This document shows, one piece after another, positions 1,667 through 21,265 of a DNA stretch of 49,274 nucleotides. Under the pieces are notes generated by a model. The model ran no database searches. It was not told the origin of the DNA and saw nothing but the letters and a program-made list of their open reading frames with translations. Each line of letters starts with the position of its first letter. Within the stretch, counting starts at the first letter, position 1. The translations under genes and the position numbers were made by a program. Source of the DNA: Acidobacteriota bacterium (GTDB lineage Bacteria; Acidobacteriota; Thermoanaerobaculia; Thermoanaerobaculales; Thermoanaerobaculaceae); the NCBI GenBank assembly GCA_004298115.1, contig SCRJ01000110.1:1-49274 (forward strand), given 5' to 3'.

Positions 1667-3169
1667 ATGTCTCTCCCCCGGATCATCGTCACCGGCGCAT
1701 CGGGTTTCGTCGGCCGCCACCTCCTCGAGGAGATCAAGGAGCGCTACCGGATCCTCGGCCTCGGGCGCCGCTCTCAGCGGGACTGCGGCGCGCCCGTGCA
1801 CCCGAACATCGCGTGGTCGCAGGTCGACATCGGCGAGCGGGAGCCCCTCGCCCGCGCGCTCGAAGGCGTCGCTGCGACCGGCGGCGCCGACGTCCTGCTC
1901 CACCTCGCCGCCCACTATGACTTCACGGGGGAGGAGAACCCCGAGTACTGGCGCACCAACGTCGAGGGGCTGCGCAACGTCCTCGAGCTCGCCAAGGGCC
2001 TCAAGCTCCGCCGCTTCGTCTTCGCGAGCTCGGTCGCCGCCAGCCGGTTTCCCCCGCCCGGGGGCGCGCTGGACGAGAGGAGCGTCCCCGACGGCGACCA
2101 CATCTACGCCCGCACCAAACGCATCGGGGAGGAGATGGTCCGGGAGTACGCCGCGCACTTCCCCACCAGCACCGTCCGCTTCGCGGCGCTGTTCTCGGAC
2201 TGGTGCGAGTACCCGCCGCTCTACGTGTTTCTGGAAACCTGGCTGTCGCAGCGGTGGAACGCGAGGGTCCTCGGCGGGCGCGGCGCGTCGGCGGTCCCCT
2301 ACCTGCACGTGCGCGATGCGGTGCGCGCCCTGGGCGTCCTGCTCCGCCGGCCCGAGCTCCCGGACGAGGGAGAGGTCTTCGCCATCAGCCCCGACCGCGC
2401 CGTCTCCCACCGCGACCTCTTCGCGGCGGCGCGGATGTCCGCCTTCGGGCAGAGAACCCGGCCGATCTGCGTGCCCAGGGTCCTGTGCGGACCGGGCATG
2501 CAGGCTCGCGACCTGCTCGGGCGCGCCCTCGGCGAGAGGCCGTTCGAACGCCCCTGGATGGCCAGGTACATCGACCTGGCGATGACCGTGAACGCTGCGC
2601 GCACCCGCGAGCGTCTCGCGTGGGCGCCCCGGCCGCGCCTCGAGGTCCTCCGCCGCCTGCCGTTCGTGCTCGAGAACCGGAAGACCCAACCGGCCGAGTG
2701 GAGCAGCGTGAACCTGGCGGCGATGAAGATGGTGAACATCCGCCCGAACCTCCGGATCCACCGCCTTCTCGAGGCCCACGAGGAGCAGATCCGGGGCGCC
2801 ATGACCGATCAGCTCCTCACGCCGGAGCCCCACCGGAGGCACCCGAAGTTCGAGCAGCTCCCGAGACACGAGCACGACTGGTACAACCGGCTGCTGCTGC
2901 ACAGCCTCATGAACTCGATCCGCGCGCGCGACAAGGCGCTCTTCCGCGCGCACTGCCGGGACCTCGCCGAGCGCCGCCGGGCGCAGGGCTTCACGGCCGA
3001 CGAGGTGTCGTTCGCGCTTCGCCTCTTCAATGAGATCTGCATCAAGACGCTCTCCCTGGAGCCGTCCGCGGTGAGCCTTCGCGAACTCGACGACTACATC
3101 ACGGCGGCGGTGCAGTTCGGCATCGACGAGGTCGAGGATGTCTTCGACCAGGACGGCGGGGAGCGCTAG
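1667..3169 (+). CDS. SDR epimerase/dehydratase-like protein with C-terminal helical (RsbRD-like) domain, copy 1
   Basis: This is a 500-residue two-part protein. Residues 1-345 form an extended-SDR fold: nucleotide-binding GASGFVG at 10-16, HLAAHYD near 83, FASS near 120 and the catalytic pair Tyr147/Lys151 in YARTK. Residues about 356-496 are a helical extension not normal for sugar epimerases, ending in a segment GFTADEVSFALRLFNE. That segment resembles the helical sensory domain of RsbR-type regulators; this is a pattern judgement, not a search. The start at 1667 is chosen over 1655 because the paralogue at 5696-7303 begins equivalently and then has Tyr147/Lys151 at identical numbers. The response regulator follows 38 bases downstream. 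The substrate is unknown; a nucleotide- or metabolite-sensing role is inferred from the context. Confidence 0.75.
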   Translation: MSLPRIIVTGASGFVGRHLLEEIKERYRILGLGRRSQRDCGAPVHPNIAWSQVDIGEREPLARALEGVAATGGADVLLHLAAHYDFTGEENPEYWRTNVEGLRNVLELAKGLKLRRFVFASSVAASRFPPPGGALDERSVPDGDHIYARTKRIGEEMVREYAAHFPTSTVRFAALFSDWCEYPPLYVFLETWLSQRWNARVLGGRGASAVPYLHVRDAVRALGVLLRRPELPDEGEVFAISPDRAVSHRDLFAAARMSAFGQRTRPICVPRVLCGPGMQARDLLGRALGERPFERPWMARYIDLAMTVNAARTRERLAWAPRPRLEVLRRLPFVLENRKTQPAEWSSVNLAAMKMVNIRPNLRIHRLLEAHEEQIRGAMTDQLLTPEPHRRHPKFEQLPRHEHDWYNRLLLHSLMNSIRARDKALFRAHCRDLAERRRAQGFTADEVSFALRLFNEICIKTLSLEPSAVSLRELDDYITAAVQFGIDEVEDVFDQDGGER

Positions 3170-3207
3170 CGGCGACGCGGTCGTGGCGTCCGTCAAGGGG
3201 AGAAGCC

Positions 3208-3642
3208 ATGGGCCAGAGACACAGACTGATGATGATCGACGACGACGTCAACCTGGTGAACGTGTTCAGGTTGGTGTGCACCGCCAAGGGCTACGAGTTC
3301 TTCGCCGCGCACTCCGCGGCCGAAGCCCTGGAGAAGATCCCCGAAGTCGGGCCCGACCTCATCATCCTGGACGTGATCATGGAGGACTTCGTCGCCGGTT
3401 TCCGCGTCGTGAGCGAGCTGCGGGCCGGCGGCCCGGACTCCCGCTTCGCCAAGTACGCCAAGGTGCCCATCATCATGCTGACCAGCGTGACCAGCAAGAC
3501 CCATCTCAACTTCTCCGACCGGGTCGGGACCGCGCTCCTTCCGGTCGACGCCTTCATCGAGAAACCGGTCAAACCCGCCGAGATCCTGGCGAAGATCGAC
3601 GCCATCCTCGCGCAGGTCCCCGAGCCCGACGCCTCCGGCTGA
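3208..3642 (+). CDS. Single-domain response regulator (CheY-like receiver)
   Basis: A 144-residue receiver domain with no output domain. The acidic pocket is DDD at 11-13, the phosphoacceptor is Asp55 in ILDVIMED, the switch Thr is Thr92 in IMLTS and the conserved Lys is Lys119 in EKP. It should be phosphorylated by a histidine kinase, most simply the one encoded convergently at 3656-5656, and act by protein contact rather than DNA binding. GGGGAG sits just before the ATG. It lies 38 bases after the epimerase-fusion gene and is probably co-transcribed with it. Its 3' end is 13 bases from the end of the kinase gene. Confidence 0.9.
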   Translation: MGQRHRLMMIDDDVNLVNVFRLVCTAKGYEFFAAHSAAEALEKIPEVGPDLIILDVIMEDFVAGFRVVSELRAGGPDSRFAKYAKVPIIMLTSVTSKTHLNFSDRVGTALLPVDAFIEKPVKPAEILAKIDAILAQVPEPDASG

Positions 3643-3655
3643 CCGGTAACGCCGC

Positions 3656-5656
3656 CTACCCCGGGCCGGCGTCGCCGGCGCCCCCCTGAGGCTGCTCCGG
3701 CGCAACCGGCAGGGTGAAGATGAACTCCGCCCACCGGCCGGGCTCCGACTCGGCCCAGATGCGGCCGCCGTGCCTTGCGATGATCCGCTGCGACACGAAG
3801 AGCCCCAGGCCGGTGCCCGACTTCGTATCGTCGCCCCCGGAGGTCAGGCGTGAGAACTTCTGGAAGAGCTTCTCCCCGGCGCCCCGCTCGAAGCCCTCCC
3901 CCTCGTTCCAGACGCTGAAGCGCAGCGACCGGCCGTCATCGTCCGGTTGCGCGGCCACGGAGATCTCGCCGCCCTCACGGCCGTACTTGATGGCGTTCGA
4001 GAGGAGGTTCTGGAAGACCGAGGCGACGAGCCCGGGATCGCACACGCCGACCAGGTTGCCGGGGACGTCGCAGACGATGCGCATGCCCCGGTCGCTGGCC
4101 AGATCGGTGAGCCGGCTGAGCAGAGGCTCGATCAGATCGGGGCAGAAGCGGACCTCGGCGAGGTGCAGCTTCATCTCCCCCTCCTCGATCCGACTGAGGT
4201 TGAGGTAGTTCGCGATCGTGTCGCGGAGGTAGTCGGCGCTGATCGAAGCGGCCTTGAGCAGCGCCTGCTGGTCCGCGTTCAACGGTCCGAGGATGCGGTC
4301 GCGCAGCGACCCGATGGCGAACACGATCGACGCGAGCGGGGACTTCAGCTCGTGCGTGACGAAGCCGAGCATCTCGAGGTAGGCGCGGTTCTTCTCCTCG
4401 GCCTCGGTGTACGTCTTCTGCAGCGCGGCCGAGGCGTCGCGCAGCTCGTTGTTGCGGATCTCGAGGGCCTCCGCCATCGAGTTGAACGCGTACGCGAGCT
4501 CCGTGACCTCCCGGCTGGCGTGGGGGATCTGCACCCGGGTGCGCAGGTTCCCCGCCGAGAGCTCGCGCGTCGCGCGCACCAGGCGCAGGATCGGCCGCCG
4601 GAAGCCGCTCGAGAGGTAGATGGCGATCGCCGCCGCGAGCGCGAGCGACAGGAACGTGATCCCGAGGTACTTCAGCCCCAGGCTCGACATGTACCCGAGG
4701 TACTGCTTCTCCAACAGCCCGACGTAGATGATGCCGATGACCGCTCCGCTCGGGTCCCTGATCGGGTCGTACGCCGAGAGGTACCAGTCGTTGACGACGA
4801 ACGCCCGGTCCGCGAAGCGCTCGCCGCGGCGGAGGACCTTGTCGTAGACCCTCTCCGAGATCCGCGTCCCGAGGGCGCGCGTTCCCGCGTCGAGCATGAC
4901 GTTGGTGGCGATCCGGACGTCGCCCAGAAAGATCGTCACCGTGCCCACGGGCCTTCCCTCGTAGGTCCGATCGCCGAACGCGGCGTTGCGGATCCGGTCC
5001 ACGAGGCTGAACTTGCGGTTGAGCAGGACGCCGCCGTAGACGACCCCGAGCACGCGCTCCCCGGCATCGAGCACGGGAATCGCCGCCTCGATCGCCATCC
5101 CCCGGTCCTCGACGGTCCGGTCCGTCGGCGTCGCGCGCTCGGTGTAGACGATGGGGATGTACGCCCGCTCGGCGAGGGACTCGCCCTCGCGGAGCAGCTC
5201 CGGACGCGACAGCAGCACCGTGCCGCTGCTCGCCGTGCCCTCCAGGGCGGCGCCGACGATCGGGTTCGGCTTCACCTCGTCCCCGGTCGCGAACGGCGGC
5301 AGCGACCGCGCCAGCACGCGAGCGTCCCCGGAGACGACGGTGAGGAAGTCGACGTCGTACTTCCGGCGAAAGGCATCGAGCTCGCTCGACAGAGCCGCGC
5401 TCGCCGGCGCGCCGCGCAGCGCGGAGCGCAGCGCTTCGCTCTGGGACACCATGCTCACCACAACCTGCACCCGGGTCCGCTCGGTCTCGTAGGCCGACCA
5501 CGCGGCGCCGAGGTCCATCTCGGCCCTCAGCATCGCCTCCTTCATGACCGTCCGGGAGATGAACGAGAACCCCGTCCAGGTGCTGACCGACGCCACCACC
5601 CCGATCACCAGGATGAACCCGAGGAGGAGCCTGGTCCGGAACGCGAGCTTCTTCAC
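3656..5656 (-). CDS. Membrane sensor histidine kinase with extracytoplasmic Cache-like domain
   Basis: A 666-residue kinase. Helix 1 covers about 8-32, a roughly 290-residue extracytoplasmic Cache-like sensor follows, helix 2 covers about 330-350 and a HAMP linker about 351-403. The phosphoacceptor is His435 in FVTHELKSPL. The ATPase domain has N-box Asn550/Asn554 (QNLLSNAIKYG), a G1-like NEGEGF near 584 and G2 GTGLGL near 614. The start is GTG; no strong ribosome site is seen, but the basic N-terminus followed by a helix fits. It lies 39 bases downstream of the second epimerase-fusion gene on the same strand, so those two form an operon. Autophosphorylation and transfer to the neighbouring receiver are expected from family knowledge. 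The ligand is unknown. Confidence 0.9.
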   Translation of the reverse strand: MKKLAFRTRLLLGFILVIGVVASVSTWTGFSFISRTVMKEAMLRAEMDLGAAWSAYETERTRVQVVVSMVSQSEALRSALRGAPASAALSSELDAFRRKYDVDFLTVVSGDARVLARSLPPFATGDEVKPNPIVGAALEGTASSGTVLLSRPELLREGESLAERAYIPIVYTERATPTDRTVEDRGMAIEAAIPVLDAGERVLGVVYGGVLLNRKFSLVDRIRNAAFGDRTYEGRPVGTVTIFLGDVRIATNVMLDAGTRALGTRISERVYDKVLRRGERFADRAFVVNDWYLSAYDPIRDPSGAVIGIIYVGLLEKQYLGYMSSLGLKYLGITFLSLALAAAIAIYLSSGFRRPILRLVRATRELSAGNLRTRVQIPHASREVTELAYAFNSMAEALEIRNNELRDASAALQKTYTEAEEKNRAYLEMLGFVTHELKSPLASIVFAIGSLRDRILGPLNADQQALLKAASISADYLRDTIANYLNLSRIEEGEMKLHLAEVRFCPDLIEPLLSRLTDLASDRGMRIVCDVPGNLVGVCDPGLVASVFQNLLSNAIKYGREGGEISVAAQPDDDGRSLRFSVWNEGEGFERGAGEKLFQKFSRLTSGGDDTKSGTGLGLFVSQRIIARHGGRIWAESEPGRWAEFIFTLPVAPEQPQGGAGDAGPG

Positions 5657-5695
5657 CGGGGGGCCCCGCCGGTGCGGGAGTGCCGTCTCAACGTC

Positions 5696-7303
5696 TCACC
5701 TCCTCTGCACCAGACAGCTCCAGATCGTGCTCTCGATCATCTCGCGGGCCGACGCGCCCTCCGGGACGGCGCCCTCGGGGGAACCCTCGGACGCGGGCTC
5801 GCCGCGCTCCTGCAACCGCTCGTACTGGCCCCGGACCTCTTCCATCGCCAGCTCGATGGGCACGGTGACGCGGTCGAACACCTCGTGCCCGAACCGCTTG
5901 AGGTCGCCACGCCGCCGCAGCGCGTCGACGATCACGTCGTTCATCAGCCGCAGGAACATGCAGACCTCGTCCACCGTGAAGCCGGTCTTGAAGCGGCCGA
6001 CGCCCGTGACCTCGAGGTAGTTCACCAGCAGCATCCGGTTGCTCGTCTGCACCGAGGTCACCAGCAGGCGGTGCCAGAGGCGCGCGAGCCAGACCAGCTT
6101 GGCGGCGTCCATCGCCGCGTACGAGGGCAGACGGCCCTGCGCCGCCTCCTCGCCGACCCGCTGGGTGAGGGCGTCGAGAAACTGGTTCTCCTCGGTGACG
6201 AGAGCTTTGAGGATCGCGAGGTCGGGGCGGACGATCTCCTTCCGCATCACGGCCGCGTTGCGGGCGTGCCACTCGACGGACTCGCTCTTGAAGCGCTCGA
6301 TGAGGAAGGGCAGCCTCCTCTCCATCTGGTACCTGGCGCTCGGCGACCACTCGAGGCGGGCGCAGCTGTGCGAGTTGTCAACCTCCATCTGCCGGTCGAT
6401 GTAGTGGTACATCCAGAGCCGCTCGAACGGCATCCGCCCCCCCAGCTTGCCCGCGGCGGTCATCATCACCATGCCGAGGCCGCAGAGGAAGGCGGGGCAC
6501 CCGACCGCCCGCTTCGCCGAGCCTGCGTACGAGCGCGTCGCGAGCTCGAACAGCCGGCGGTGCGAGGTGCAGCCCGTCGTCGAGGCGATCAGGATCTCCG
6601 CCGGCCGGAGGCGGTCGCACCGTACGAGCAGGTGCCGGATGAACGTGACGATATCGCGGATGTGGATGTACGGGATGGCGCTCTCCCCCGAGCCCGCCAG
6701 GATCCGCGAGCGCCACGAGCCGCCGAGCCAGGTGTTCAGGAACACGTACAACGGCGGGTACTCGCACCAGTCGCTGTAGACCGCGCCGAAGCGCACGATG
6801 CAGGTCGGAACGGAGTCTCGCTGCTCGCGCACCAGGCGCTCGCCCTCGCGCTTGCTCCATGCGTAGATGTGGCGGCCGTCCGGCGGGGTCGACTCGTCGA
6901 TCGGCCCCTCCCGCCGCGGGAACTCGCACGCCGCCACCGAGCTCGCGAACACGAACAGCTCGAGCTGCAGCCCTCGTGCCAGCTCGAGCACGTGTTGCGT
7001 TCCCTCGACGTTCGTCCGCCTGTACTCGGGGCGGTGCTCGCCGGCATAGTCGTAGTACGCCGCCAGGTGGAGAAGGACCTTGGCGCCGCCGGCCGAGGCG
7101 ATCTCGCGGAACGTCCGCGCGAGGCCTTCGGCGTCGCCGATGTCCACCTGCATCCACGCGATGTTGGGGTGGACCGGCGCGCCGCACTCGCGCTGCGACC
7201 GGCGGGCGATCGCGAAGATGCGGTACTCCTCCTTCAGCTCCTCGAGCAGGTGCCGCCCCACGAAACCGGACGCCCCGGTGACGATCAGCGCGGGCCGGGG
7301 CAT
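5696..7303 (-). CDS. SDR epimerase/dehydratase-like protein with C-terminal helical (RsbRD-like) domain, copy 2
   Basis: A 535-residue paralogue of the protein at 1667-3169, similar over its whole length. Nucleotide-binding GASGFVG lies at 10-16, catalytic Tyr147/Lys151 in YAWSK, and the shared signatures RRSQRECGAPVHPNIAW and SDWCEYPPLYVFL are present. The C-terminal 170 residues are helical, with GFTVDEVCMFLRLMND matching the same point of copy 1. The start is the ATG at 7303, which has GAGGTGA seven bases upstream; an upstream in-frame TTG is less likely. The gene precedes the histidine kinase by 39 bases. Retained catalytic residues suggest it still binds NAD(P). Its placement suggests signalling rather than a biosynthetic pathway. 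No sugar-pathway gene lies next to it. Confidence 0.75.
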   Translation of the reverse strand: MPRPALIVTGASGFVGRHLLEELKEEYRIFAIARRSQRECGAPVHPNIAWMQVDIGDAEGLARTFREIASAGGAKVLLHLAAYYDYAGEHRPEYRRTNVEGTQHVLELARGLQLELFVFASSVAACEFPRREGPIDESTPPDGRHIYAWSKREGERLVREQRDSVPTCIVRFGAVYSDWCEYPPLYVFLNTWLGGSWRSRILAGSGESAIPYIHIRDIVTFIRHLLVRCDRLRPAEILIASTTGCTSHRRLFELATRSYAGSAKRAVGCPAFLCGLGMVMMTAAGKLGGRMPFERLWMYHYIDRQMEVDNSHSCARLEWSPSARYQMERRLPFLIERFKSESVEWHARNAAVMRKEIVRPDLAILKALVTEENQFLDALTQRVGEEAAQGRLPSYAAMDAAKLVWLARLWHRLLVTSVQTSNRMLLVNYLEVTGVGRFKTGFTVDEVCMFLRLMNDVIVDALRRRGDLKRFGHEVFDRVTVPIELAMEEVRGQYERLQERGEPASEGSPEGAVPEGASAREMIESTIWSCLVQRR

Positions 7304-7456: not shown

Positions 7457-7864
7457 CTAACCGCGCACCGGGTCCGGCCGGGGCTGGGCCAGACGGACCA
7501 GGCGGCGGGTGACGAGCACGGCGAGGCCCATCAACCCGTCCGCGGCCCCGGCGAAGCCGACGAACCACGGGGCGCCCCCCGCCAGCGCCGCGGCCGTCAG
7601 GAAGACCGTGGCGAGCGCCTTGGCGGTCAGGAGCAGGAACACGGTCCGGTGGCGCGCGTACTCCACCAGATACCCGGCCCCCACCACGAGGTGGAACACC
7701 CCGGCCTGACGCGGAAAGAAGAGCGGCGGGACGGTCTCCCAGCCGCCGAAGCGCAGCGCCCACGCCGGCGCCGCGAGCAGCGCAAACCCGATCGCGAACG
7801 TGTGGAGCGCGATCAACACGACGAGCCATCGCTCCGCCGCCGCGGCGAGGGAGCCGGCCCTCAT
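7457..7864 (-). CDS. Small membrane protein at the end of the hyb operon
   Basis: A 135-residue hydrophobic protein with about four membrane helices (around 15-35, 55-75, 80-98 and 100-120). The start is the ATG at 7864, which overlaps the TGA of the hydrogenase protease gene (ATGA), implying translational coupling. I do not recognise a family. Being last in the hydrogenase operon it may serve the membrane-bound enzyme, but the sequence shows no cofactor motif. Confidence 0.6.
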   Translation of the reverse strand: MRAGSLAAAAERWLVVLIALHTFAIGFALLAAPAWALRFGGWETVPPLFFPRQAGVFHLVVGAGYLVEYARHRTVFLLLTAKALATVFLTAAALAGGAPWFVGFAGAADGLMGLAVLVTRRLVRLAQPRPDPVRG

Positions 7865-8421
7865 CGCCGCTCCCACCAGAGGTCCGGCGGCGAAGGCAGC
7901 GGCCGCGCTCTTGGCGGGGCGCCGAGGCGCTCAAGCTCGCGGACCACCGCGACGGCCGCGTCCGGCACGGCGGCGCGCACGGCCGCGGTGAGGCCGATGC
8001 CGGTCGTCACCTTGCCCGGCACCACCCCGACCAGCAACACCTCCCGCGGCCCGTCGCCGGCGAACGCGACGGTCAGGAGAGCTTCCTTGAGGCCGGGGTC
8101 GTGCGGCGACAGGCGCGGCTGCGGCGGGGTCTTGAGGATTTCCTCGCGGCGGTACAGGACGATCGTCCCGGCGGCGGCCGGCGCGTTCACCGTGTCCACG
8201 ACCACCGCCGCGTCGAGTCCGAGCAGGTACGGCGTGAGGTCGAGACCGGGCGTGCCCAGGTCGAGGACCGCGACCTCGGGGGGGAACTCGTACTGCGCCT
8301 CCAGGGCGCCGATCACCGTCGGGCCGAGGGCGTCGTCCCCCATCAGGACGTTCCCCAGCCCGATCACGGCCAACCTCCGCCGCGACTCGGTCCCCTTGCC
8401 GGCGCCGCCCTCGTCGCTCAT
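7861..8421 (-). CDS. hybD: [NiFe] hydrogenase maturation protease
   Basis: A 186-residue HybD/HyaD-family endopeptidase. It has the expected N-terminal signature GLGNVLMGDDALGP, whose acidic residues help bind nickel, and a central Asp in AVVVDTVNAP. The family clips the C-terminal tail of the large subunit after nickel insertion; here the tail is the last 16 residues of the product of 8529-10232. The ATG at 8421 is chosen because GAGGGG sits just upstream and the family signature follows soon after; the open frame extends further upstream without conserved sequence. The gene follows the large subunit by 107 bases and overlaps the next gene by four. The C-terminal end (about 20 residues) is Pro/Arg-rich and unremarkable. 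Confidence 0.88.
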   Translation of the reverse strand: MSDEGGAGKGTESRRRLAVIGLGNVLMGDDALGPTVIGALEAQYEFPPEVAVLDLGTPGLDLTPYLLGLDAAVVVDTVNAPAAAGTIVLYRREEILKTPPQPRLSPHDPGLKEALLTVAFAGDGPREVLLVGVVPGKVTTGIGLTAAVRAAVPDAAVAVVRELERLGAPPRARPLPSPPDLWWERR

Positions 8422-8528
8422 GGCCCCTCGCACCATCATGCGCGCACATTCCAGGGGCGGGGGCAACGCCCCCGCCCCGACCCGAGCCTCGCCCCGAGCA
8501 GGCGTTCCTGCTCGCCCCCGGCCCCTGC

Positions 8529-10232
8529 CTACGTCAGGGTCCTGATCTTCGACAGCTCGTTGCCCTCGACGTCCAGCGTGTGAATCGCGCACGCCAGGCA
8601 GGGGTCGAACGAGTGCACCGTGCGCAGGACCTCCAACGGCTTTGCGGTGTCCGCGATCGGGTTGCCCACCAGCGACGCCTCGTACGGCCCCTTTTGCCCC
8701 TTCTCGTCCCGCGGCCCCGCGTTCCAGGTGGACGGCACCACCGCCTGGTAGTTGGCGATCTTGCCGTCCCTGATCACCACCCAGTGGGACAGCGTGCCGC
8801 GCGGCGCCTCGTGGAACCCGAAGCCGCGTTGCTCACCCGCCGGATACGTCCAGGGCGTGAAGATCGCGACGTCGCCCTTGCCCACGTTGTCGATGAGGAG
8901 CTGCAGGTGCTTGAGGGCGAGCTCGGAGAGCGTCGCGCACCGGATCGCGCGCGCCGCGTGCCGCCCGAGCGTCGAGTGCAGCACGGCCGGAGTCAGCTTG
9001 ACCTTGGCGATCGCCGAGGCCGTGTTCAACACCTGGTCGGCGTACTTCTTGACGATCGGGTGGCCGGTCGCGTACCCGACCAGCACCTGCGCCAGCGGCC
9101 CAACTTGCATCGGACGGCCCTCGAAGCGCGGCGCCTTGACCCACGAGTACTTCTTGTCGCCGTCGAAGTCGGTGTAGCGCGGGACGGTCTCCTCGTCCCA
9201 CGGGTGCTTGTCCCACTCGCCGTCGTACCAGGCGTGGGCGATGCTCTCCGTCACGTTGTCCTTGAAGTAGGGGTCCCGGAAGCTCGTGATCTGCTTCAGC
9301 GTCGCGAGGTTGCCGTCGACGATCGTTCCGCCCGGCAGGTCGAACTGCGTGCCCTTCGTGTCGAGGGGCAGGTCCGGCACCGAGAGGTAGTTCGTGACGC
9401 CGCCGCCGTAGCCGAGCCACTCCGGGTACATCGCGCCGATCGCCGCGACGTCCGGCAGATAGACCTGCTGCACGAACGCCGCGACCTCGTCGAGGAGGTC
9501 CTTCATCATGAACAGCTTTTCCATATTGAGCGTGGCCTGGTTGTCGAGGTTGATGGCGTTGGCGACGCCGCCGACGGCGAGGTTCTGGATGTTGGGGGTC
9601 TTGCTGCCGAGGATCGCGACCACCTTGTTGGCCTTGAACTGGTATTCGAGCGCCTGCAGGTAGTGAGCCACGGCCAGGAGGTTGACCTCGGGCGGCAGCT
9701 TCATCGCCGGGTGGCCCCAGTAGCCGTTCGTGAAGATCCCGAGCTGCCCGCCGGCGACGAAGCTCGCGAGCTTGTCCTTGACCGCCTCCATCTCGCGCTT
9801 CGAGTTGTGCGGCCACGGCGACAGGCTCTCGCCGAGCGCGGACGCCTTCGCCGGATCGGCCTTGAGCGCCGACGTCACGTCCACCCAGTCGAGCGCCGAC
9901 AGGTGGTAGAAGTGCACCATGTGGTCGTGCAGCGCGTGAGCGGCCACGATGACGTTGCGGATGTACTGCGCGTTGATCGGGATCTCGATGCCCAGCGCGT
10001 TCTCGACGGCGCGCACCGAGGCGATCGCGTGGACCGTCGTGCACACGCCGCACAGGCGCTGGGTGAAGATCCAGGCGTCGCGCGGGTCGCGGCCCTGGAG
10101 GATCGTCTCGATGCCGCGGTACATCTGCCCCGAGGACCAGGAGTTCTTCACCCGGCCGCCGTCGACCTCGACGTCGATGCGGAGGTGCCCTTCGATGCGG
10201 GTGATCGGATCTACCGTGATTCGCGTGCTCAT
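8529..10232 (-). CDS. hybC: [NiFe] hydrogenase large (catalytic) subunit, Hyb type
   Basis: 567 residues, matching the usual length of HybC. It carries the Ni-Fe site. The N-terminal ligand motif is RLCGVCTTVHA with Cys61 and Cys64; the C-terminal motif is DPCLACAIH with Cys545 and Cys548. A 16-residue tail follows the terminal His551 and is the expected cleavage substrate of the protease encoded downstream. N-terminal DPITRIEGHLRI is typical of group 1 enzymes. The C-terminal end closely resembles E. coli HybC as I recall it, supporting group 1c (H2 uptake, quinone-linked). It lies nine bases after hybB, with GGGGGAG before the ATG. It has no Tat signal of its own and should be exported with the small subunit. 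Confidence 0.96.
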   Translation of the reverse strand: MSTRITVDPITRIEGHLRIDVEVDGGRVKNSWSSGQMYRGIETILQGRDPRDAWIFTQRLCGVCTTVHAIASVRAVENALGIEIPINAQYIRNVIVAAHALHDHMVHFYHLSALDWVDVTSALKADPAKASALGESLSPWPHNSKREMEAVKDKLASFVAGGQLGIFTNGYWGHPAMKLPPEVNLLAVAHYLQALEYQFKANKVVAILGSKTPNIQNLAVGGVANAINLDNQATLNMEKLFMMKDLLDEVAAFVQQVYLPDVAAIGAMYPEWLGYGGGVTNYLSVPDLPLDTKGTQFDLPGGTIVDGNLATLKQITSFRDPYFKDNVTESIAHAWYDGEWDKHPWDEETVPRYTDFDGDKKYSWVKAPRFEGRPMQVGPLAQVLVGYATGHPIVKKYADQVLNTASAIAKVKLTPAVLHSTLGRHAARAIRCATLSELALKHLQLLIDNVGKGDVAIFTPWTYPAGEQRGFGFHEAPRGTLSHWVVIRDGKIANYQAVVPSTWNAGPRDEKGQKGPYEASLVGNPIADTAKPLEVLRTVHSFDPCLACAIHTLDVEGNELSKIRTLT

Positions 10233-10241
10233 GTCTCCCCC

Positions 10242-11423
10242 TTACAAGGTCTTCTTCGCGGGCGCGGGGCCCTCGAGGATCGGGAACGTCTTGACCACCG
10301 CGATGTAGATGGCGACCTCGGCCGCGATGATGCCGAAGGTGATCAGCAGCTCCGGGACGGCCGGAAAATAGGAGAACGCCGATCCGGGCCGGAACGCCAC
10401 CAGATAGGCGTCGACCCGGTGCAGCGCGGCGCCGAGGAACAACAGGATCGCGCCCCGCACCTGCCAGACCGTCTGGTGGCGCCGCTCGGAAAGCAGGATC
10501 GCGGCGGCCGCGAGCGGCAGGAGCACCTCCGCCATGAATGCGATCCCGTAGCCGCTGTTGAGGTAGCCCAGCTTGCCGGCGAGAGCCGCCTCGCCGATCC
10601 GGAAGACCGCCCAGCCCACCGCGACCCATCCCGCGATTCGGGAGAGCGACGCCAGCATCGTCGTCTCGCGGGGACGGCCGAACGCCGCGGCGGAGAACGT
10701 CGCCTCCAGCACCACGACCGCGTACCCGATCAAGATGCAGTTCACGACGAAGAGCAGGGGCAGCCAGGGCGTCAGCCAGAGCGGGTGCATCCTGGGCCCG
10801 GGCAGGAGCATCATCGTCCCCAGCGACGACTGGTGCATCGTCGGCAGCAGCAACCCGAGGGCGAGGATCCAGACGAAGTTCTTCTCCACGAGCGTGAGGC
10901 CCGTCTGGGCCAGGCGGCGCAGGCGGGTCGAGGTGCCGGTGCGGAGCTTCTCGAACAGCGCGGGCGAGAGCTCGATCATCAGCACCAGGGTGTAGGCGGC
11001 GACGCAGAGCGCGACCTCGAGCTGCGGAGAGTGAGACCAGCGCCAGACGTAGACCGGGACCTTCCACAGGCTCCAGAAGCGGCCGAGGTCGATGATCACG
11101 GCGATCACCGCGAGCCCGTAGCCGAGCAGGCTCGTCAGCACGGCCGGCCGGACCAGAGGGTGATATTGCCCCCGGTTGAGGATGTACACGAGGATCCCGA
11201 CCGCATAGCCGCCGCACCCGATCGCGGTGCCGACGACGACGTCGATCGCGATCCACACGCCCCACGGATACCCGTTGGACAGGTTGGAGACGGCGCCGAT
11301 GCCGTAGAAGAAACGAACCGCCGCCATCACGGCCCCGACACCGGCGATCGCGAGCAGCACGATGAACGGTCGGGTCATCAGCCGGCCGCCCATGGCGACG
11401 TGGACCTGGGCGTGGCTGCTCAT
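10242..11423 (-). CDS. hybB: Hydrogenase membrane subunit, NrfD/PsrC family
   Basis: A 393-residue integral membrane protein with roughly ten helices, matching HybB in length. This family anchors the periplasmic hydrogenase and passes electrons between the HybA iron-sulfur protein and the quinone pool without haem. The start ATG at 11423 overlaps the hybA stop (ATGA) and has a strong AGGAGG site eight bases upstream. The N-terminal FYGIGAVSNLSNGYPWG is typical of the family. The gene sits between hybA and hybC as in the classical hybOABC order. Confidence 0.93.
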   Translation of the reverse strand: MSSHAQVHVAMGGRLMTRPFIVLLAIAGVGAVMAAVRFFYGIGAVSNLSNGYPWGVWIAIDVVVGTAIGCGGYAVGILVYILNRGQYHPLVRPAVLTSLLGYGLAVIAVIIDLGRFWSLWKVPVYVWRWSHSPQLEVALCVAAYTLVLMIELSPALFEKLRTGTSTRLRRLAQTGLTLVEKNFVWILALGLLLPTMHQSSLGTMMLLPGPRMHPLWLTPWLPLLFVVNCILIGYAVVVLEATFSAAAFGRPRETTMLASLSRIAGWVAVGWAVFRIGEAALAGKLGYLNSGYGIAFMAEVLLPLAAAAILLSERRHQTVWQVRGAILLFLGAALHRVDAYLVAFRPGSAFSYFPAVPELLITFGIIAAEVAIYIAVVKTFPILEGPAPAKKTL

Positions 11424-12364
11424 CGCTTGTCCTCCTTCTCGGCGGCGCCGACAGAATCTGCACGGCGGTTGCGGTAGATCACCGCTCCGAGCACGGCGAA
11501 CAGACCGACGGGGGCGAGGAACGGGACCTTGTAGTAGATCCCTTCCTGCACCGCGTAGGCGGTCTCCGGCACGGGCTGCGTCCCGAGGTCGGGAAACCCG
11601 ATCTTGTCGAACGGCACGTGCGCGAGGTACAGCACCTGCGTCCCGCCGCCGTCGACCTCGCCGTACACCCGGTCCTTGTAGTACTTCCCGGGCCACGCCG
11701 CGATCCTGCGCTTCGCCTCGGCGAGCAGCTCGTCCCGCCGGCCGTAGATCACGGCCTCGCGCGGGCACACCTCGCAGCACGCGGGGCCCTGGCCCATCGG
11801 GTAGCGGGTGAAACCTCCCGCGCCCGTGACCGCGGCATCCTTGATCCGCTGCCGGCACAGCTCGCACTTGACGATCTTGGGCGCGGCCTTCTCGAACTCG
11901 AACTTCGGCACGTTGAAGGGGCACGCCATCATGCAGTAGCGGCAGCCCACGCAATACGTCGGGTCGTACATGACGACCCCGGTCACCTCGTCCTTGTGCA
12001 GCGAGTGCAGCATGCACGCCGCTGCGCAGCCGGGATCGACGCAATGCATGCACTGCTGTTTGACGAACGACTCCTGCTCGCCGTCGCGGTAGAGCTTGAT
12101 GATGTTCTTCGTCTTGCTGTCGAGATCGGTCGGGGCGTCCCACAGACCTCCGTTGGCGGCGCTTTCGACGGGCATGTCGTTCGCTTGCTTGCACGCCACC
12201 ACGCAGGTCTTGCACCCAATGCACAGGGTCGCGTCGTAGAGCATCCCCATCGCTCCGGGCGGAGCGGCCTTCCGCTCGGCGGCCATGGCCGGGGCGACGC
12301 CGGCGGCGACGGCCGTGCCGCCGACGGCGAGCGACTTGATCAGGGCGCGTCGGTCGATCGCCAT
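11420..12364 (-). CDS. hybA: Tat-exported ferredoxin-type hydrogenase subunit
   Basis: 314 residues. The N-terminus DRRALIKSLAVGG is a twin-arginine signal ending near AMA. The body has four groups of cysteines for 4Fe-4S clusters: CIGCKTCVVAC, CMHCVDPGCAAAC, CVGCRYCMMAC, and the split CELCRQR with CCEVCP. A hydrophobic segment near the C-terminus (VPFLAPVGLFAVLGAVIY) should anchor it. It wires the small subunit to HybB. The start at 12364 is one base after the TGA of the small-subunit gene. The frame is open upstream, but only this start places the Tat motif at the N-terminus. Confidence 0.94.
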   Translation of the reverse strand: MAIDRRALIKSLAVGGTAVAAGVAPAMAAERKAAPPGAMGMLYDATLCIGCKTCVVACKQANDMPVESAANGGLWDAPTDLDSKTKNIIKLYRDGEQESFVKQQCMHCVDPGCAAACMLHSLHKDEVTGVVMYDPTYCVGCRYCMMACPFNVPKFEFEKAAPKIVKCELCRQRIKDAAVTGAGGFTRYPMGQGPACCEVCPREAVIYGRRDELLAEAKRRIAAWPGKYYKDRVYGEVDGGGTQVLYLAHVPFDKIGFPDLGTQPVPETAYAVQEGIYYKVPFLAPVGLFAVLGAVIYRNRRADSVGAAEKEDKR

Positions 12365-12365
12365 G

Positions 12366-13502
12366 TCATGCCCCCTTGTCCGGCTTGGCGCCCGCCTTTT
12401 CCCCGCCCCCGTCCACCTTCTTGGCCGCCACCCATCCACCGCCCACGAGCGCGCCGCCGACCAGCCCCGCGAGCCCGGCCGCCGCCGCGCTGACCCCGCC
12501 CTGCGGCGCCTTGATCGGCGGGTAGCCGGCGGGAGGCGTCGGGTTCTCGATCTCCACCGTCGTGTGCAGCGGGATGCGGAACGCGACCGCCTGCTCGGTG
12601 CAGCCGACGCACGGGTGGCCGATGCCGATCGGCCAGGCGCCGGGCACCTCGCAGAACGGCTGCAGCGAGCAGTTCGCGTGCGTCACCGGCCCCTTGCAGC
12701 CCATCTTGTACAGGCACCACCCGTCGCGATGACCCTGATCCCCGAACTGCTGCACGAACCGGCCCGCGTCGAAGTGCGGGCGGCGCGGGCAGTCCTCGTG
12801 GATCACGCGCCCGTACGCGAAGCGCGGCCGCCCCTTCTCGTCGAGCGCCGGCAGCGTGCCGAACGTCACGAACTGCAGCGCGGTGCCGAGGAAGTTGTAG
12901 GGGTTGGCCGGACAGCCCGGGATCGTCACCACCGTCTTGCCGGCGAGGATCATCGGCGCACCGGTCGCGCCGGTCGGGTTCGGGTCCGCGGCCGGGATTC
13001 CGCCGAACGAGGCGCACGACCCGATCGCGATGATCGCGCCCGCTTTCTCCGCGACCTCGTTCAACATGTCGATCGCGGTCTTGCCGCCGATCTTGCAGTA
13101 GATCCCGTTGTCCTTCGTGGGGATCGCGCCCTCGACGACGCAGATGTACTTGCCCGCGTTCGCGGCCATGGCGCTCTTGAGCGCGTCCTCCGCCTGGTAC
13201 CCGGCCGCCGCGAAGAGCGTCTCGCAGTAGTCGAGCGACACGAGGTCGAGGATCAGCTGCGCGAGCGCCGGGTGCGACGTGCGCAGCAGCGACTCGGTGC
13301 ACCCGGTGCACTCCTGGAAGTGCAGCCAGATGACCGACGGCTTGAGCCCTTTGGCCGCCGCCTCGGCCCACTTGACCCCGACCGACGCCGGTAGGCCGAC
13401 GGCCACCGCCGCCATGGTGCAGACGCGGATGAAGTCCCGCCTGTCCAACCCATGACGTCCCGCAAGCGCGCCGTCTGCATCGTTCCGTCTCGAACTTGCC
13501 AT
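12366..13502 (-). CDS. hybO: [NiFe] hydrogenase small subunit, Tat-exported
   Basis: 378 residues with a twin-arginine signal (DRRDFIRVC at about 20-28) and a C-terminal hydrophobic anchor (AAAAGLAGLVGGALVGGG). Iron-sulfur ligand motifs run in the expected order: ECTGCTES for the proximal cluster, GSCASFGG, GCPANPYNF, then CPRRPHF, CLYKMGC, NCSLQPFC and HPCVGC for distal and medial clusters. It carries electrons from the NiFe site to HybA. It is the first gene of the operon; AGGGGGG precedes the ATG. The folded small-large dimer should be exported through Tat using this signal. No hypA-F metal-insertion genes are present in the window. Confidence 0.95.
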   Translation of the reverse strand: MASSRRNDADGALAGRHGLDRRDFIRVCTMAAVAVGLPASVGVKWAEAAAKGLKPSVIWLHFQECTGCTESLLRTSHPALAQLILDLVSLDYCETLFAAAGYQAEDALKSAMAANAGKYICVVEGAIPTKDNGIYCKIGGKTAIDMLNEVAEKAGAIIAIGSCASFGGIPAADPNPTGATGAPMILAGKTVVTIPGCPANPYNFLGTALQFVTFGTLPALDEKGRPRFAYGRVIHEDCPRRPHFDAGRFVQQFGDQGHRDGWCLYKMGCKGPVTHANCSLQPFCEVPGAWPIGIGHPCVGCTEQAVAFRIPLHTTVEIENPTPPAGYPPIKAPQGGVSAAAAGLAGLVGGALVGGGWVAAKKVDGGGEKAGAKPDKGA

Positions 13503-14478: not shown

Positions 14479-15312
14479 TCAGGACTTCGGCCGCTGGAGA
14501 GCCGGTGCCGGCTCGTAGTGTCCGGGGCAGCGCTGCTGGGGACCGGGCTCCATGCCGTACGTCAGGATCGGCTGCGCCATCCCGGGGACGACCACCTTGA
14601 GCCCCCACTGGTGCGCGCGGTCGACCGGGTCCACGGTCGTGTGAGCCACGTCGACGACCTCGTCGATGTGGGTCGGCAGGGGCGCCGAGAAGCTCTTCTC
14701 CGCGTTCGTATTGCCGGTGAAGACGGACCACACCGAGTAGGAGGCGATCCCGGCCGGGCTGTCGATCAGGATGTGCACCTTGACGGCGAGCCCGCCCGCG
14801 CAGGCGATGCTCACGATCTTCGCCTCGGGCTGCTTGGTTTCCCGGCAGAGGATCTCGAAGTTGGCGTGCGCCCACTGGCGGGGCGCGCCCGGCGACGTCG
14901 TCCTCACCGCCTCCCACCCGGCGAAGTGCGGCAGCTCGGGGCCGCCGAGCTGCCAGGTCGTGGAGACCGGCTTCGACCCGGGGGCGGTGAACGTGAGGGT
15001 CTTCGCGACGGTGTCGATGCCGCCGTCGCTGCGATCGAAGACGTAGTCGACGACGCAAGGGTTGTTCGGGCCGATCCTGCCGGCGACCTTGATCGCGCCC
15101 TCGAACTTGATCGTCACCGGGCACTTCCCGGCGTACCTCGGAGGCAGCGCCCGCAAGGGCGCCTCGACGACGCGGCACGGCACGGGCTGGATGTTGAGCT
15201 GCTCGACGTCCTTGACCTTCGCGGTCTGGGCCCACGCCGAAGCTGCGAGGACCAGCGCGAACGTCACGACGAGAGACACGACGACGCGTGCGGACACCCG
15301 ACGCTCTCTCAT
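14479..15312 (-). CDS. Secreted protein of unknown function
   Basis: 277 residues with a clear Sec signal peptide: basic MRERR, a hydrophobic core (VVVSLVVTFALVLAASA) and a cleavage site near AWA-QT. The mature part has about five cysteines (for example CRVV, GKCPVTI, NPCVVDY, ILCRE) and a C-terminal MEPGPQQRCPGH, suggesting a disulfide-stabilised extracytoplasmic domain with beta-rich character. I do not recognise the family. GGGAGGAG precedes the ATG. It is a single gene, convergent with rubrerythrin and divergent from hydG. Nothing ties it functionally to either. Confidence 0.7.
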   Translation of the reverse strand: MRERRVSARVVVSLVVTFALVLAASAWAQTAKVKDVEQLNIQPVPCRVVEAPLRALPPRYAGKCPVTIKFEGAIKVAGRIGPNNPCVVDYVFDRSDGGIDTVAKTLTFTAPGSKPVSTTWQLGGPELPHFAGWEAVRTTSPGAPRQWAHANFEILCRETKQPEAKIVSIACAGGLAVKVHILIDSPAGIASYSVWSVFTGNTNAEKSFSAPLPTHIDEVVDVAHTTVDPVDRAHQWGLKVVVPGMAQPILTYGMEPGPQQRCPGHYEPAPALQRPKS

Positions 15313-15465
15313 GGTGCTCTCCTCCCTTGTTTTCCCAAGTATCGGTCCCGGATGGACCGGACGTCAAGGCCCGTGCGCGCGAGGCGGAGCCGGAGGACCC
15401 CGCCCGGAGCCGCCCCGGAGGCGCCGGGAAGCCGCTTCGCCGCCTCCGCCGCCGCCTCGCCGAGG

Positions 15466-15474
15466 TGCTACGAT
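15466..15474 (+). promoter_or_regulatory. Candidate extended -10 promoter of hydGFE
   Basis: TGCTACGAT gives a TG-extended -10 (hexamer TACGAT). The start point would be near 15481, leaving an 88-base leader before the hydG ATG. No good -35 is visible. Confidence 0.35.
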
Positions 15475-15568
15475 ACCGGCCGGGAAGGTCGCCGGGTGTT
15501 CGGTATCCGGAGCCCCCGACTCCGCGCCGCTGGGGCGGCGCCACCACCCGGGAACGCGAGGCACGCTC

Positions 15569-16966
15569 ATGAGCACCGCCACCGAGGGCGTGAGGATCGA
15601 CGAAGGTCTGATCGCCGAGACGCTGGCCGCGGGGCGCCGGCACGACGCCGCCCGCGTGCGCGAGGTCCTGGCCAAGGCGGCCGAGCTCGGCGGGCTGCAG
15701 GCGCTCGACATGGCCGTCCTGATGGGCGTCTCGGACCCCGAGCTCCTCGGCGAGATCTTCCAAACCGCCAAGAGCGTCAAGGAGCGCATCTACGGCAACC
15801 GCCTGGTGCTCTTCGCGCCCCTGTACATCTCCAACCTCTGCGGCAACGAGTGCCTCTACTGCGCGTTTCGTGCCGCGAACCGCGAGCTGCAGCGGCGCGC
15901 GCTCAGTCAGGACGAGATCGCCGTCGAGGTGAAGCACCTCGTCGAGCAGGGCCACAAGCGCATCCTCCTCGTCGCCGGCGAGGCGTACCCGCGCGAAGGG
16001 TTCGAGTACGTCCTGGACGCGATCGACACCGTCTACCGCACCGCCTCCGGCGCGGGCGAGATCCGGCGGGTCAACGTCAACATCGCGCCGCTCTCCACCG
16101 AGGAGTTCGGGCTCCTGAAGGCGAAGCGGATCGGCACCTACCAGGTCTTCCAGGAGACCTACCACCGCGAGACGTACGCGCGGGTTCACCTCGCGGGCAG
16201 GAAGCGCGATTTCGACTGGCGCGTCAACGCCCCCGACCGCGCGATGGAAGCCGGGATCGACGACGTCGGCATCGGGGTCCTCTTCGGCCTGTTCGACTGG
16301 CGCTTCGAGGCGCTCGCCCTCGTGCAGCACATCCGCCACCTCGAGCGGCGGTTCGGGGTCGGGCCGCACACGCTCTCGGTGCCGCGCATGGAACCCGCCA
16401 CCGGCTCCGACGTCGCGAGCCACCCGCCGCACCCGGTCTCCGACGTCGACTTCCGCAAGATCGTGGCGATCCTCCGCCTGGCCGTGCCCTACACCGGGAT
16501 CATCATGTCGACCCGGGAAACGGCCGCGATCCGCCGCGAGACGTTCGCGCTCGGGGTGTCGCAGATCTCCGCCGGCAGCCGCACGAACCCCGGCGGCTAC
16601 TCGGACGACGAGCGGCTCGAGGCGGCGCAGTTCTGCCTCGGCGACCACCGCCCCCTCGACGAGGTGATCCGCGACGTGGCGGCGCTCGGCTACGTGCCGT
16701 CGTTCTGCACCGCCTGCTACCGCCTCGGGCGGACCGGGCGCGACTTCATGGACCTCGCCAAGCCGGGCGAGATCAAGGATCACTGCGGTCCCAACGCCCT
16801 CGCCACCTTCCAGGAGTACCTGGAGGACTACGGTTCGCCGGAAACCTGGCAGGTCGGGGAGGCCGCCGTCGCGCGCGCCCTCGCCGGGCTGGAGCCCGGC
16901 CTGCGGGGCAGGGCCGCGACGATGGTCCGGATGGTGAAGAACGGCGCGCGCGACGTGTACTGGTAG
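15569..16966 (+). CDS. hydG: [FeFe] hydrogenase H-cluster maturase HydG (radical SAM tyrosine lyase)
   Basis: A 465-residue radical SAM enzyme that cleaves tyrosine to make the CO and CN ligands of the H-cluster. The SAM cluster motif CGNECLYC (CX3CX2C) lies at about 92-99. The second, C-terminal cluster that separates HydG from thiazole synthase ThiH is present as CTACYRLGRTGRDFM plus a later Cys in DHCGPNAL. The start ATG at 15569 precedes the conserved N-terminal region; longer open frame upstream is not conserved. It is followed by hydF after 61 bases and hydE, forming a complete maturation operon directly upstream of the structural genes. Confidence 0.95.
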   Translation: MSTATEGVRIDEGLIAETLAAGRRHDAARVREVLAKAAELGGLQALDMAVLMGVSDPELLGEIFQTAKSVKERIYGNRLVLFAPLYISNLCGNECLYCAFRAANRELQRRALSQDEIAVEVKHLVEQGHKRILLVAGEAYPREGFEYVLDAIDTVYRTASGAGEIRRVNVNIAPLSTEEFGLLKAKRIGTYQVFQETYHRETYARVHLAGRKRDFDWRVNAPDRAMEAGIDDVGIGVLFGLFDWRFEALALVQHIRHLERRFGVGPHTLSVPRMEPATGSDVASHPPHPVSDVDFRKIVAILRLAVPYTGIIMSTRETAAIRRETFALGVSQISAGSRTNPGGYSDDERLEAAQFCLGDHRPLDEVIRDVAALGYVPSFCTACYRLGRTGRDFMDLAKPGEIKDHCGPNALATFQEYLEDYGSPETWQVGEAAVARALAGLEPGLRGRAATMVRMVKNGARDVYW

Positions 16967-17027
16967 GGACCGGCATGAGGCGTGAGCGCACGAACCGTCG
17001 CCCCTCGGCGGAGCCGGGCGGGGCGAG

Positions 17028-18263
17028 ATGAGTCAGACGGCGCCGCGCAACATGCGCCTCCACATCGGGTTGTTCGGCCGCCGCAACGTCGGCAAGTCGA
17101 GCCTGTTGAACGCCATCACCCGGCAGGATGCGGCCATCGTCTCGGCGACGCCGGGCACCACGACGGACCCGGTGGAGAAGCCGATGGAGCTGCTTCCGCT
17201 CGGGCCGGTGCTCTTCATCGACACCGCCGGCGTCGACGATGCCGGGGCCCTCGGCGAGAAGCGCATCGCGAAGACCCGCCAGGCGCTCGACCGCACCGAC
17301 CTCGGCGTGCTCGTCGCCGCGGCCGGCGTGTGGGGCGAGTACGAGGACGCGCTGCTCGCCGAGTTCCGTTCCCGCGGCGTGCCCGTCGTCGCGGTGTTCA
17401 ACAAGTGCGACCTCGGCCGACCGGGCGGGGCGCTGCTCGAGCGCCTCGCGACGGAGAAGGTGGCGTGCGTGCCGACCACGGCCACGTCCGGCGACGGGAT
17501 CCCCGACCTGCGGCGCGCACTGGTCGCGGCGGCGCCGGCCGACTTCCTCGACGCCCGCCGAATCGTCGGCGACCTGGTCGGGCCGGGTGAGCTTGTCGTC
17601 CTCGTGGTCCCCATCGACAAGGAAGCGCCCAAGGGCCGTCTGATCCTCCCCCAGGTGCAGACGATCCGGGACCTCCTCGACGCCGACTCGTTCTGCCTGG
17701 TGGTCAAGGAGCGCGAGCTCAAGACCGCGTTGGAACGCCTCAACCGGCCGCCCAAGCTCGTCGTCACCGACTCGCAGGCGTTCCTCAAGGCGGCCGCCGA
17801 CACGCCGCCGGGGGTGATGCTGACCTCGTTCTCGATCCTGTTCGCGCGGTTCCAGGGCGACCTCGCCGAGCTGGTGCGCGGGGCCCGCGCGATCGAGACC
17901 CTCAAGCGGGGCGACACGGTCCTCGTCGCCGAGGCGTGCACCCACCACCCGATCGGCGAGGACATCGGCCGCGTCAAGATCCCGCGCTGGCTGACGCAAT
18001 ACGCGGGCTGCACGCTCGAGTTCGCCACGGTCCAGGGGCGCGACTTCCCCGTGGACCTTTCCCCGTACGCCCTGGTCGTGCACTGCGGCAACTGCATGGG
18101 GAACCGCCGCGAGATGCTCTCCCGCATCCTGCGCTGCCGCCAGGCGGGCGTGCCGATCACGAACTACGGCCTCGCCATTGCCTACTCCCTCGGGATCTTC
18201 GAGCGCGCCCTCGCGCCGTTCCCGGCGGCGCTCGCCGCCTACCGTGACGCGGCGGCCCGATGA
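17028..18263 (+). CDS. hydF: H-cluster maturation GTPase HydF
   Basis: 411 residues. The N-terminal GTPase has G1 GRRNVGKSS, G3 DTAG and G4 NKCD. The C-terminal part has the HydF cluster ligands: CTHHP near 305 and HCGNCMGN near 350. HydF is the scaffold on which the 2Fe precursor is assembled and from which it is passed to HydA. It lies between hydG and hydE, overlapping the hydE start by four bases (ATGA). The ribosome site before the ATG is weak (GGGGCGAG). Confidence 0.95.
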   Translation: MSQTAPRNMRLHIGLFGRRNVGKSSLLNAITRQDAAIVSATPGTTTDPVEKPMELLPLGPVLFIDTAGVDDAGALGEKRIAKTRQALDRTDLGVLVAAAGVWGEYEDALLAEFRSRGVPVVAVFNKCDLGRPGGALLERLATEKVACVPTTATSGDGIPDLRRALVAAAPADFLDARRIVGDLVGPGELVVLVVPIDKEAPKGRLILPQVQTIRDLLDADSFCLVVKERELKTALERLNRPPKLVVTDSQAFLKAAADTPPGVMLTSFSILFARFQGDLAELVRGARAIETLKRGDTVLVAEACTHHPIGEDIGRVKIPRWLTQYAGCTLEFATVQGRDFPVDLSPYALVVHCGNCMGNRREMLSRILRCRQAGVPITNYGLAIAYSLGIFERALAPFPAALAAYRDAAAR

Positions 18264-19327: not shown

Positions 19328-19415
19328 CGTCTCCCGTTCGCAGGCACCGCGGGCGGGCGGAGACGGGCGCGGGCGCCGCGCGCGCCGCACCGGGCGGCGG
19401 GCGGCGGCCCCGGGG

Positions 19416-19444
19416 TTCCGCTTGCGGACGACTCGTGATAGTAT
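19416..19444 (+). promoter_or_regulatory. Candidate promoter of the hydCBA structural operon
   Basis: TTCCGC (19416-19421) and TAGTAT (19439-19444) are separated by 17 bases, and TG one base before the hexamer makes it an extended -10. The start point would fall near 19451, giving a leader of about 85 bases before hydC. Confidence 0.4.
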
Positions 19445-19460
19445 TCACATAGCGTATGTG
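19434..19460 (+). promoter_or_regulatory. Two overlapping dyads (possible operator) at the hydCBA promoter
   Basis: CGTGA-N6-TCACA (19434-19449) matches nine of ten half-site bases of the CRP/FNR-superfamily TGTGA-N6-TCACA pattern, with the six spacer bases being the -10 hexamer itself. Overlapping it, CACATA-GCG-TATGTG (19446-19460) is a perfect six-base dyad across the expected start point. Sites in this position would normally repress. Confidence 0.4.
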
Positions 19461-19534
19461 GCGCCCGCGGGCCCCCTCCGGCGTGATCCGGCCGGACGCG
19501 GCCGCGGACCTCGCCACGGACCGGAGGTGACGTC

Positions 19535-21249: not shown

Positions 21250-21265
21250 GACAAGGGAGCCGGAC

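Follow-up and report, generated by a model that had tools for sequence, protein, structure and literature searches.

Which of two homologous proteins do a histidine kinase and a stand-alone receiver serve when all four genes lie side by side, and what do the two proteins do? The question is raised by a 49,274-nucleotide stretch of DNA from an Acidobacteriota bacterium of the Thermoanaerobaculaceae (contig SCRJ01000110.1, positions 1 to 49,274; hereafter the window), in which two proteins, F1 and F2, each join an extended short-chain dehydrogenase/reductase (SDR) to a helical C-terminal domain of about 145 residues and flank the genes of the receiver (RR) and the kinase (HK). A first-pass annotation of this DNA placed the four genes correctly and read them as two paired units, F1 with RR and F2 with HK, each fusion owning half of one two-component system. 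Our analysis shows that the locus is made of two joined units of a different composition: an old pair of F1 and a small membrane protein (mem139) with a Hyb-type [NiFe] hydrogenase operon, and a cassette of F2, HK and RR which in the window's genus is set between F1 and mem139.

The F2 cassette

F1 (1667..3169, + strand; 500 amino acids, with a second in-frame ATG at 1655) consists of an SDR half (about residues 1-345; Pfam Epimerase E=8.6e-28) and the C-terminal domain (about residues 356-496). RR (3208..3642, + strand) follows in the same direction at a distance of 38 bp and is a receiver of 144 amino acids (Pfam Response_reg, 53 bits). Convergent to it lies HK (3656..5656, - strand), whose 666 amino acids include, by Pfam, a periplasmic sCache_3 domain followed by HAMP, HisKA and HATPase domains, and directly upstream of HK, after a gap of 39 bp, lies F2 (5696..7303, - strand; Pfam Epimerase E=3.4e-28), in which the globin-like C-terminal domain described below is followed by a variable linker and a conserved peptide. 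Both HK and RR look competent, as HK has the histidine-bearing motif HELKSP, and RR the acidic pocket, the Asp of an LDV motif, and the signature Thr and Lys.

Orthologs of HK were sought in 396 Acidobacteriota genomes and in 133 genomes of the phylum to which locus L066 belongs. Clear ones, 52-61% identical, occur in G310, G149, G533, G537, G528, G527 and G124, and the place and orientation of RR are the same in the first six of these. Every ortholog above 50% identity with enough flanking sequence has F2 directly upstream and RR converging on it, and this order recurs in two phyla, namely in another acidobacterial family (G310) and in Zixibacteria. Kinases with 40% identity to HK or less have no F2 beside them and were not counted as orthologs. 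In both G310 and the Zixibacteria RR converges on HK without an adjacent F1, and in the zixibacterial genome G124 the F2-HK pair stands beside an Rnf operon and ApbE. The four-gene layout itself is present in the window and four further genomes of its genus and is known from that genus only, contrary to the first-pass expectation of a neighborhood conserved elsewhere.

The phylogeny agrees with the gene order. Scanning the genome_contigs collection (84,980 species, with one genome each) recovered 80 loci, whose neighborhoods were profiled. The two-domain protein, which we call F, is encoded at no fewer than 80 loci from about twelve phyla, far more than chance would give; most of these genomes are metagenome assemblies, so that a gene missing from one of them counts for little. 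In a quick tree of 83 sequences, with support values from SH-like approximate likelihood ratio tests (SH-aLRT) only, F1 and F2 lie in two long-separated branches, F1 in one that is linked to hydrogenases, and a recent duplication giving rise to both was rejected on account of these separate, supported branches. The F2 branch has a support of 100 and each of its members adjoins two-component genes. Its sole member outside the F2-HK-RR cassette is found in Calditrichota, where F2 lies directly behind an unrelated heme-Cache (Tll0287-like, CxxCH) histidine kinase and an NtrC-type sigma-54 response regulator (L050:742-4050); the heme-Cache CxxCH family has been described as comprising NO or redox sensors (PMC12889525). 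No F2 copies were found on plasmids at 1e-40.

Judging by how the genes are ordered in G310 and Zixibacteria and by the separate branches of the tree, we assign both the kinase and the receiver to F2 and not to F1: F2, HK and RR form a conserved unit. Of the first-pass proposal of SDR sensors tied to a kinase-receiver pair, what stands is that one such fusion, F2, is so tied across phyla. That F1 and F2 jointly bias a single kinase-receiver pair is very improbable. The four genes are indeed adjacent in five genomes of one genus, and in the window F1 and RR are closely spaced and co-directional; against this, F1 mostly occurs without HK and RR, the latter occur without an adjacent F1, a different kinase gene splits F1 from RR at locus L005, and F1 and F2 are separate branches.

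The F2 branch is further set apart by its C-terminus. Past the variable linker every F2 ends in a near-identical peptide, RExLEETIWxCLVxRK, which the other branches lack (in the window SAREMIESTIWSCLVQRR, 5699..5752, - strand). In the window's genome F2 is its only carrier, and the same holds for 11 other genomes apart from two weak matches at E ~1. The peptide, which is kept beside two unrelated kinases, may be read as a docking tail. A different tail motif, approximately hxxLEDhC, is shared by the non-F2 branches after the globin-like domain (C-termini of L042, L053, L055, L060, L061, L062, L069 and others).

Hydrogenases and other redox partners of the family

Directly to the right of mem139 the window encodes a complete Hyb-type [NiFe] hydrogenase operon (7861-13502, all on the - strand). 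It comprises a HyaD/HybD-type maturation protease (7861..8592; TIGR00072 E=7.5e-37), a large subunit of the hydrogenase-2 (Hyb) type (8529..10232; Pfam 743 bits, NF007778 831.6 bits), a HybB-like membrane subunit of the NrfD family (10242..11447; PF03916 E=3.9e-7), a HybA-like ferredoxin subunit (11420..12439; Fer4_11 E=5.5e-15) and a HybO-type small subunit (12366..13502; Oxidored_q6 and NiFe_hyd_SSU_C). In the F1 branch such an operon lies within the fetched flank in 24 of 38 cases, counted in 8 kb flanks with broken contigs included, and many of the others are on short contigs. By our own estimate, a single randomly positioned hydrogenase gene would lie no farther than about 8 kb from F in ~0.4% of genomes of 4 Mb. 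F1 belongs to its neighboring Hyb-type operon.

Other branches are associated with other redox enzymes. In Bacteroidota the SDR-globin protein is fused in a single open reading frame (ORF) to an [FeFe] hydrogenase at eight loci (L034, L036, L038, L043, L046, L048, L057 and L071), a ninth, L064, being a broken copy, and searches of whole genomes again showed such fusion ORFs, ~1,000-1,130 codons long. The L036 fusion of 1103 residues contains the SDR followed by Fer2/Fer4 and complete H-cluster domains (Pfam), with [NiFe] large- and small-subunit genes beside it. In a branch from Krumholzibacteriota and Gemmatimonadota F precedes an Rnf operon. Several side observations attach to these loci: Mvh-type [NiFe] hydrogenase genes lie near the Bacteroidota fusions, with FlpD/MvhD and HdrA-like genes confirmed in sister loci of L036; one gene of an Rnf operon situated after F joins an RnfB-like protein and a GltD-like pyridine nucleotide oxidoreductase in a fusion (L044:11032-13140); and the window carries, besides the [NiFe] operon, HydE/F/G-type maturation genes, a NuoF-like gene and an [FeFe] hydrogenase gene at 15062-23206. 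Not noticed in the first-pass annotation were the small membrane protein to the right of F2 and the hydrogenase operon beyond it, the [FeFe] hydrogenase fusions and the tail restricted to F2.

The position of F in an operon beside a maturation protease and hydrogenase subunits, and its fusion to HydA, might suggest a structural or assembly factor, that is, a chaperone or tether of redox complexes, hydrogenases among them, which uses the SDR as a binding scaffold, with the F2 copy recruited to stabilize or localize a kinase. We regard this as improbable: the catalytic and cofactor residues are intact in nearly all members, which is unexpected of a pure scaffold, and F is present in assemblies in which no hydrogenase was found.

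The commonest neighbor of F is mem139 (7457..7876, - strand, in the window), a small protein with four predicted transmembrane helices which, by a hidden Markov model (HMM), is encoded within 1.5 kb of F at 49 of 85 loci; it was not found beside F at many loci of Thermodesulfobacteriota. Its invariant residues H25, Q57, H62, K86 and D113 fall in the predicted helices. No family is assigned to it in Pfam or NCBIfam, where its weak matches include DUF4345 and DoxX-type families, and no relative of solved structure was found by sequence; the family is possibly DoxX-like. Although mem139 in the window stands next to F2, it probably belongs to the unit of F1, because its score pattern resembles that of the hydrogenase-linked F1 relatives more than that of the zixibacterial copies next to F2. 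At the left end of the window an Nramp-like metal transporter gene (1-1400, - strand; identified from its translation only) runs off the stretch.

Two domains of unequal conservation

All of 43 homologs aligning with F over its full length match Pfam Epimerase, and their SDR half has the TGxxGxxG Rossmann fold and the catalytic Ser-Tyr-Lys residues of extended SDRs; among solved structures the fold matches are GalE and RmlB. The first-pass statement that both fusions retain the nucleotide-binding loop together with Tyr147 and Lys151 is borne out across the family: the glycine motif is kept in all 43 homologs and Ser122, Tyr147 and Lys151 each in 42, the triad being intact in both F1 and F2. 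Where the second strand ends, R34 is invariant and R35 and S36 nearly so; because of these residues, and by analogy with NADP-using SDRs, we infer that F binds NADP(H). An invariant motif, SDWCEY, lines a pocket which perhaps takes a small ligand. Membership of a known family of metabolic epimerases was rejected, the best NCBIfam equivalog, HpnA, scoring 61.7 bits against a cut-off of 367.65, and the C-terminal region is absent from any epimerase family in Pfam or NCBIfam, in agreement with the first-pass view that it is not a standard part of such an enzyme.

The C-terminal domain (2711..3166, + strand, in F1) is far more variable. F1 and F2 are 45-46% identical overall and 24% identical in this domain, which has few near-invariant positions; all 30 invariant positions of the full-length alignment precede it. 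G441, the glycine of the segment GFTADEV/GFTVDEV which had been noticed as shared by both copies, is at least 90% conserved. AlphaFold predicts an entirely helical domain, with a mean predicted local distance difference test score (pLDDT) of 90.2 for the domain and 91.7 for the whole of F1. The 50 best Foldseek matches are all of the globin/phycobilin class (phycobiliproteins and sensor globins; TM-scores ~0.5-0.7), at E ~0.01-0.05 and with none at E<=0.001. No relative of solved structure was found by sequence. On the strength of the predicted model, the domain appears to be globin-like, within the globin/phycobilin fold class and possibly of the RsbR-N kind.

The N-terminal domain of RsbR has been described as a non-heme globin (PMC6614362), and to this extent the earlier suggestion of an RsbRD-type domain is plausible at the level of the fold. 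In the Pfam family itself the domain does not find a place: RsbRD_N (PF14361) matches F1 at E=0.0036 with 18.4 bits, below the gathering cut-off of 24.3, does not match F2 in a Pfam scan, and is matched at E<=0.05 by 7 of the 43 members (best 9e-4). The alignment of the 43 homologs has no conserved His in this domain, and a heme- or bilin-binding role was rejected since neither a conserved His nor a conserved Cys is found there. There is no STAS domain in F1, F2 or the Pfam-scanned neighbors, such that the STAS domain and RsbT partners by which a stressosome is recognized do not come together here.

It is the SDR half and not the globin-like half that is most conserved, and for this reason an enzymatic role of F together with mem139 is nearly as likely as the regulatory role that we favor below. 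Under this alternative F would be an NADP-dependent reductase, epimerase or dehydratase which acts with the four-helix protein on a membrane-borne substrate (a lipid, an isoprenoid or a quinone) needed by quinone-linked redox complexes; the globin-like domain would be an assembly or regulatory appendix, and the two-component system of the F2 branch would merely control or sense the chemistry. The near-universal S122-Y147-K151 triad, the invariant SDWCEY pocket, the invariant His, Gln, Lys and Asp of a frequently adjacent mem139, and the membrane-bound nature of several partner complexes (Hyb, Rnf) are as expected of such a pair. Less easily accommodated are the lack of substrate or pathway genes as constant neighbors, the fusion of the Bacteroidota F to an [FeFe] hydrogenase of the soluble type, the many Thermodesulfobacteriota loci at which mem139 was not found, and the linkage of F2 to two-component genes, which it leaves unexplained.

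A possible regulator of redox complexes

The reading we favor, at a probability of roughly 0.4 (0.42), is that F is an NADP(H)-reading regulator of redox complexes, and that its F2 branch gives a two-component system an additional input. We infer from the sequences that NAD(P) is the signal. Occupancy of F by its cofactor or ligand would move the globin-like domain into another pose, and this domain would contact the partner complex, be it a [NiFe] hydrogenase, the [FeFe] hydrogenase in cis in Bacteroidota, or Rnf. In the F2 branch the globin-like domain would contact the neighboring two-component system instead, with the C-terminal peptide serving as a docking tail. From the cytoplasm F2 would then feed an additional input to the Cache kinase, the periplasmic domain of which would read a second, outside signal, and the stand-alone receiver would relay the phosphoryl signal by protein contact. 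The outcome would be that a cue from outside and the cofactor state inside the cell jointly set hydrogen or low-potential electron metabolism. In favor of this reading count the recurrence of the F2-HK-RR order in two phyla, the second, unrelated two-component system beside the Calditrichota F2, the well-supported F2 branch with its own tail, the redox neighbors of the wider family, the globin-like fold of the C-terminal domain, and the conserved NADP-type, catalytic and pocket residues.

Several observations weigh against this regulatory reading. The far greater conservation of the SDR half, with its catalytic triad kept, is no less expected of an enzyme than of a sensor. The kinase has a sensor domain of its own and may do without an input from F2, and the F2 tail is kept in Calditrichota although the kinase there is unrelated, so that binding of the kinase is not a necessary role of the tail. 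A constant neighbor, of a redox kind or any other, was looked for beside the F members of Thermodesulfobacteriota and not found, and in three F-bearing assemblies neither hydrogenase family was found.

In a bolder form of the regulatory reading, which we consider unlikely, F would represent a regulator class of a new kind, one that reads NADP(H) and acts directly on low-potential redox machines through a globin-like output domain. It would gate [NiFe] hydrogenase and Rnf by contact and [FeFe] hydrogenase in cis, and in the F2 branch it would dock through its peptide on a two-component system, a single module passing the internal cofactor state on to enzyme activity and to signaling alike. It is not settled how anaerobes adjust hydrogen production or uptake to the reducing power inside the cell. 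If the regulatory reading is true, F would be a direct link of cofactor state to hydrogen metabolism, fused to one hydrogenase, placed in the operon of another, found near Rnf, and in one branch accompanied by a sensor kinase. Members of the family occur in about twelve phyla, and it seems to be unnamed so far.

Comparison with known systems

Our literature search found no described system with the layout of this locus, as the first-pass annotation had supposed, and no described hydrogenase with an SDR-globin subunit, link between an SDR or RsbRD domain and a hydrogenase, or fusion of an SDR to an [FeFe] hydrogenase. The components taken singly are nevertheless familiar. With the extended SDRs GalE, RmlB and HpnA, F shares the fold, the glycine motif and the Ser-Tyr-Lys catalytic residues; it differs from them in falling far below every NCBIfam equivalog cut-off, in its pocket motif SDWCEYPP, in the extra globin-like domain and in its redox or two-component gene neighbors. 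Like the RsbR-type non-heme globin sensors (RsbRD_N; the N-domain of Bacillus subtilis RsbR), the C-terminal domain of F is predicted to be globin-like, without a conserved His, and gives weak profile matches in some members; unlike them it sits C-terminal to an SDR, without STAS, and scores below the Pfam cut-off. The [FeFe] hydrogenase HydA and the Hyb-type [NiFe] hydrogenase are partners of F by fusion and by operon, respectively. Finally, the F2 cassette resembles two-component systems with an auxiliary protein and a stand-alone receiver in combining a Cache-type kinase with a single-domain receiver in a conserved gene order, whereas the constant partner here is an SDR-globin protein with a C-terminal peptide of its own.

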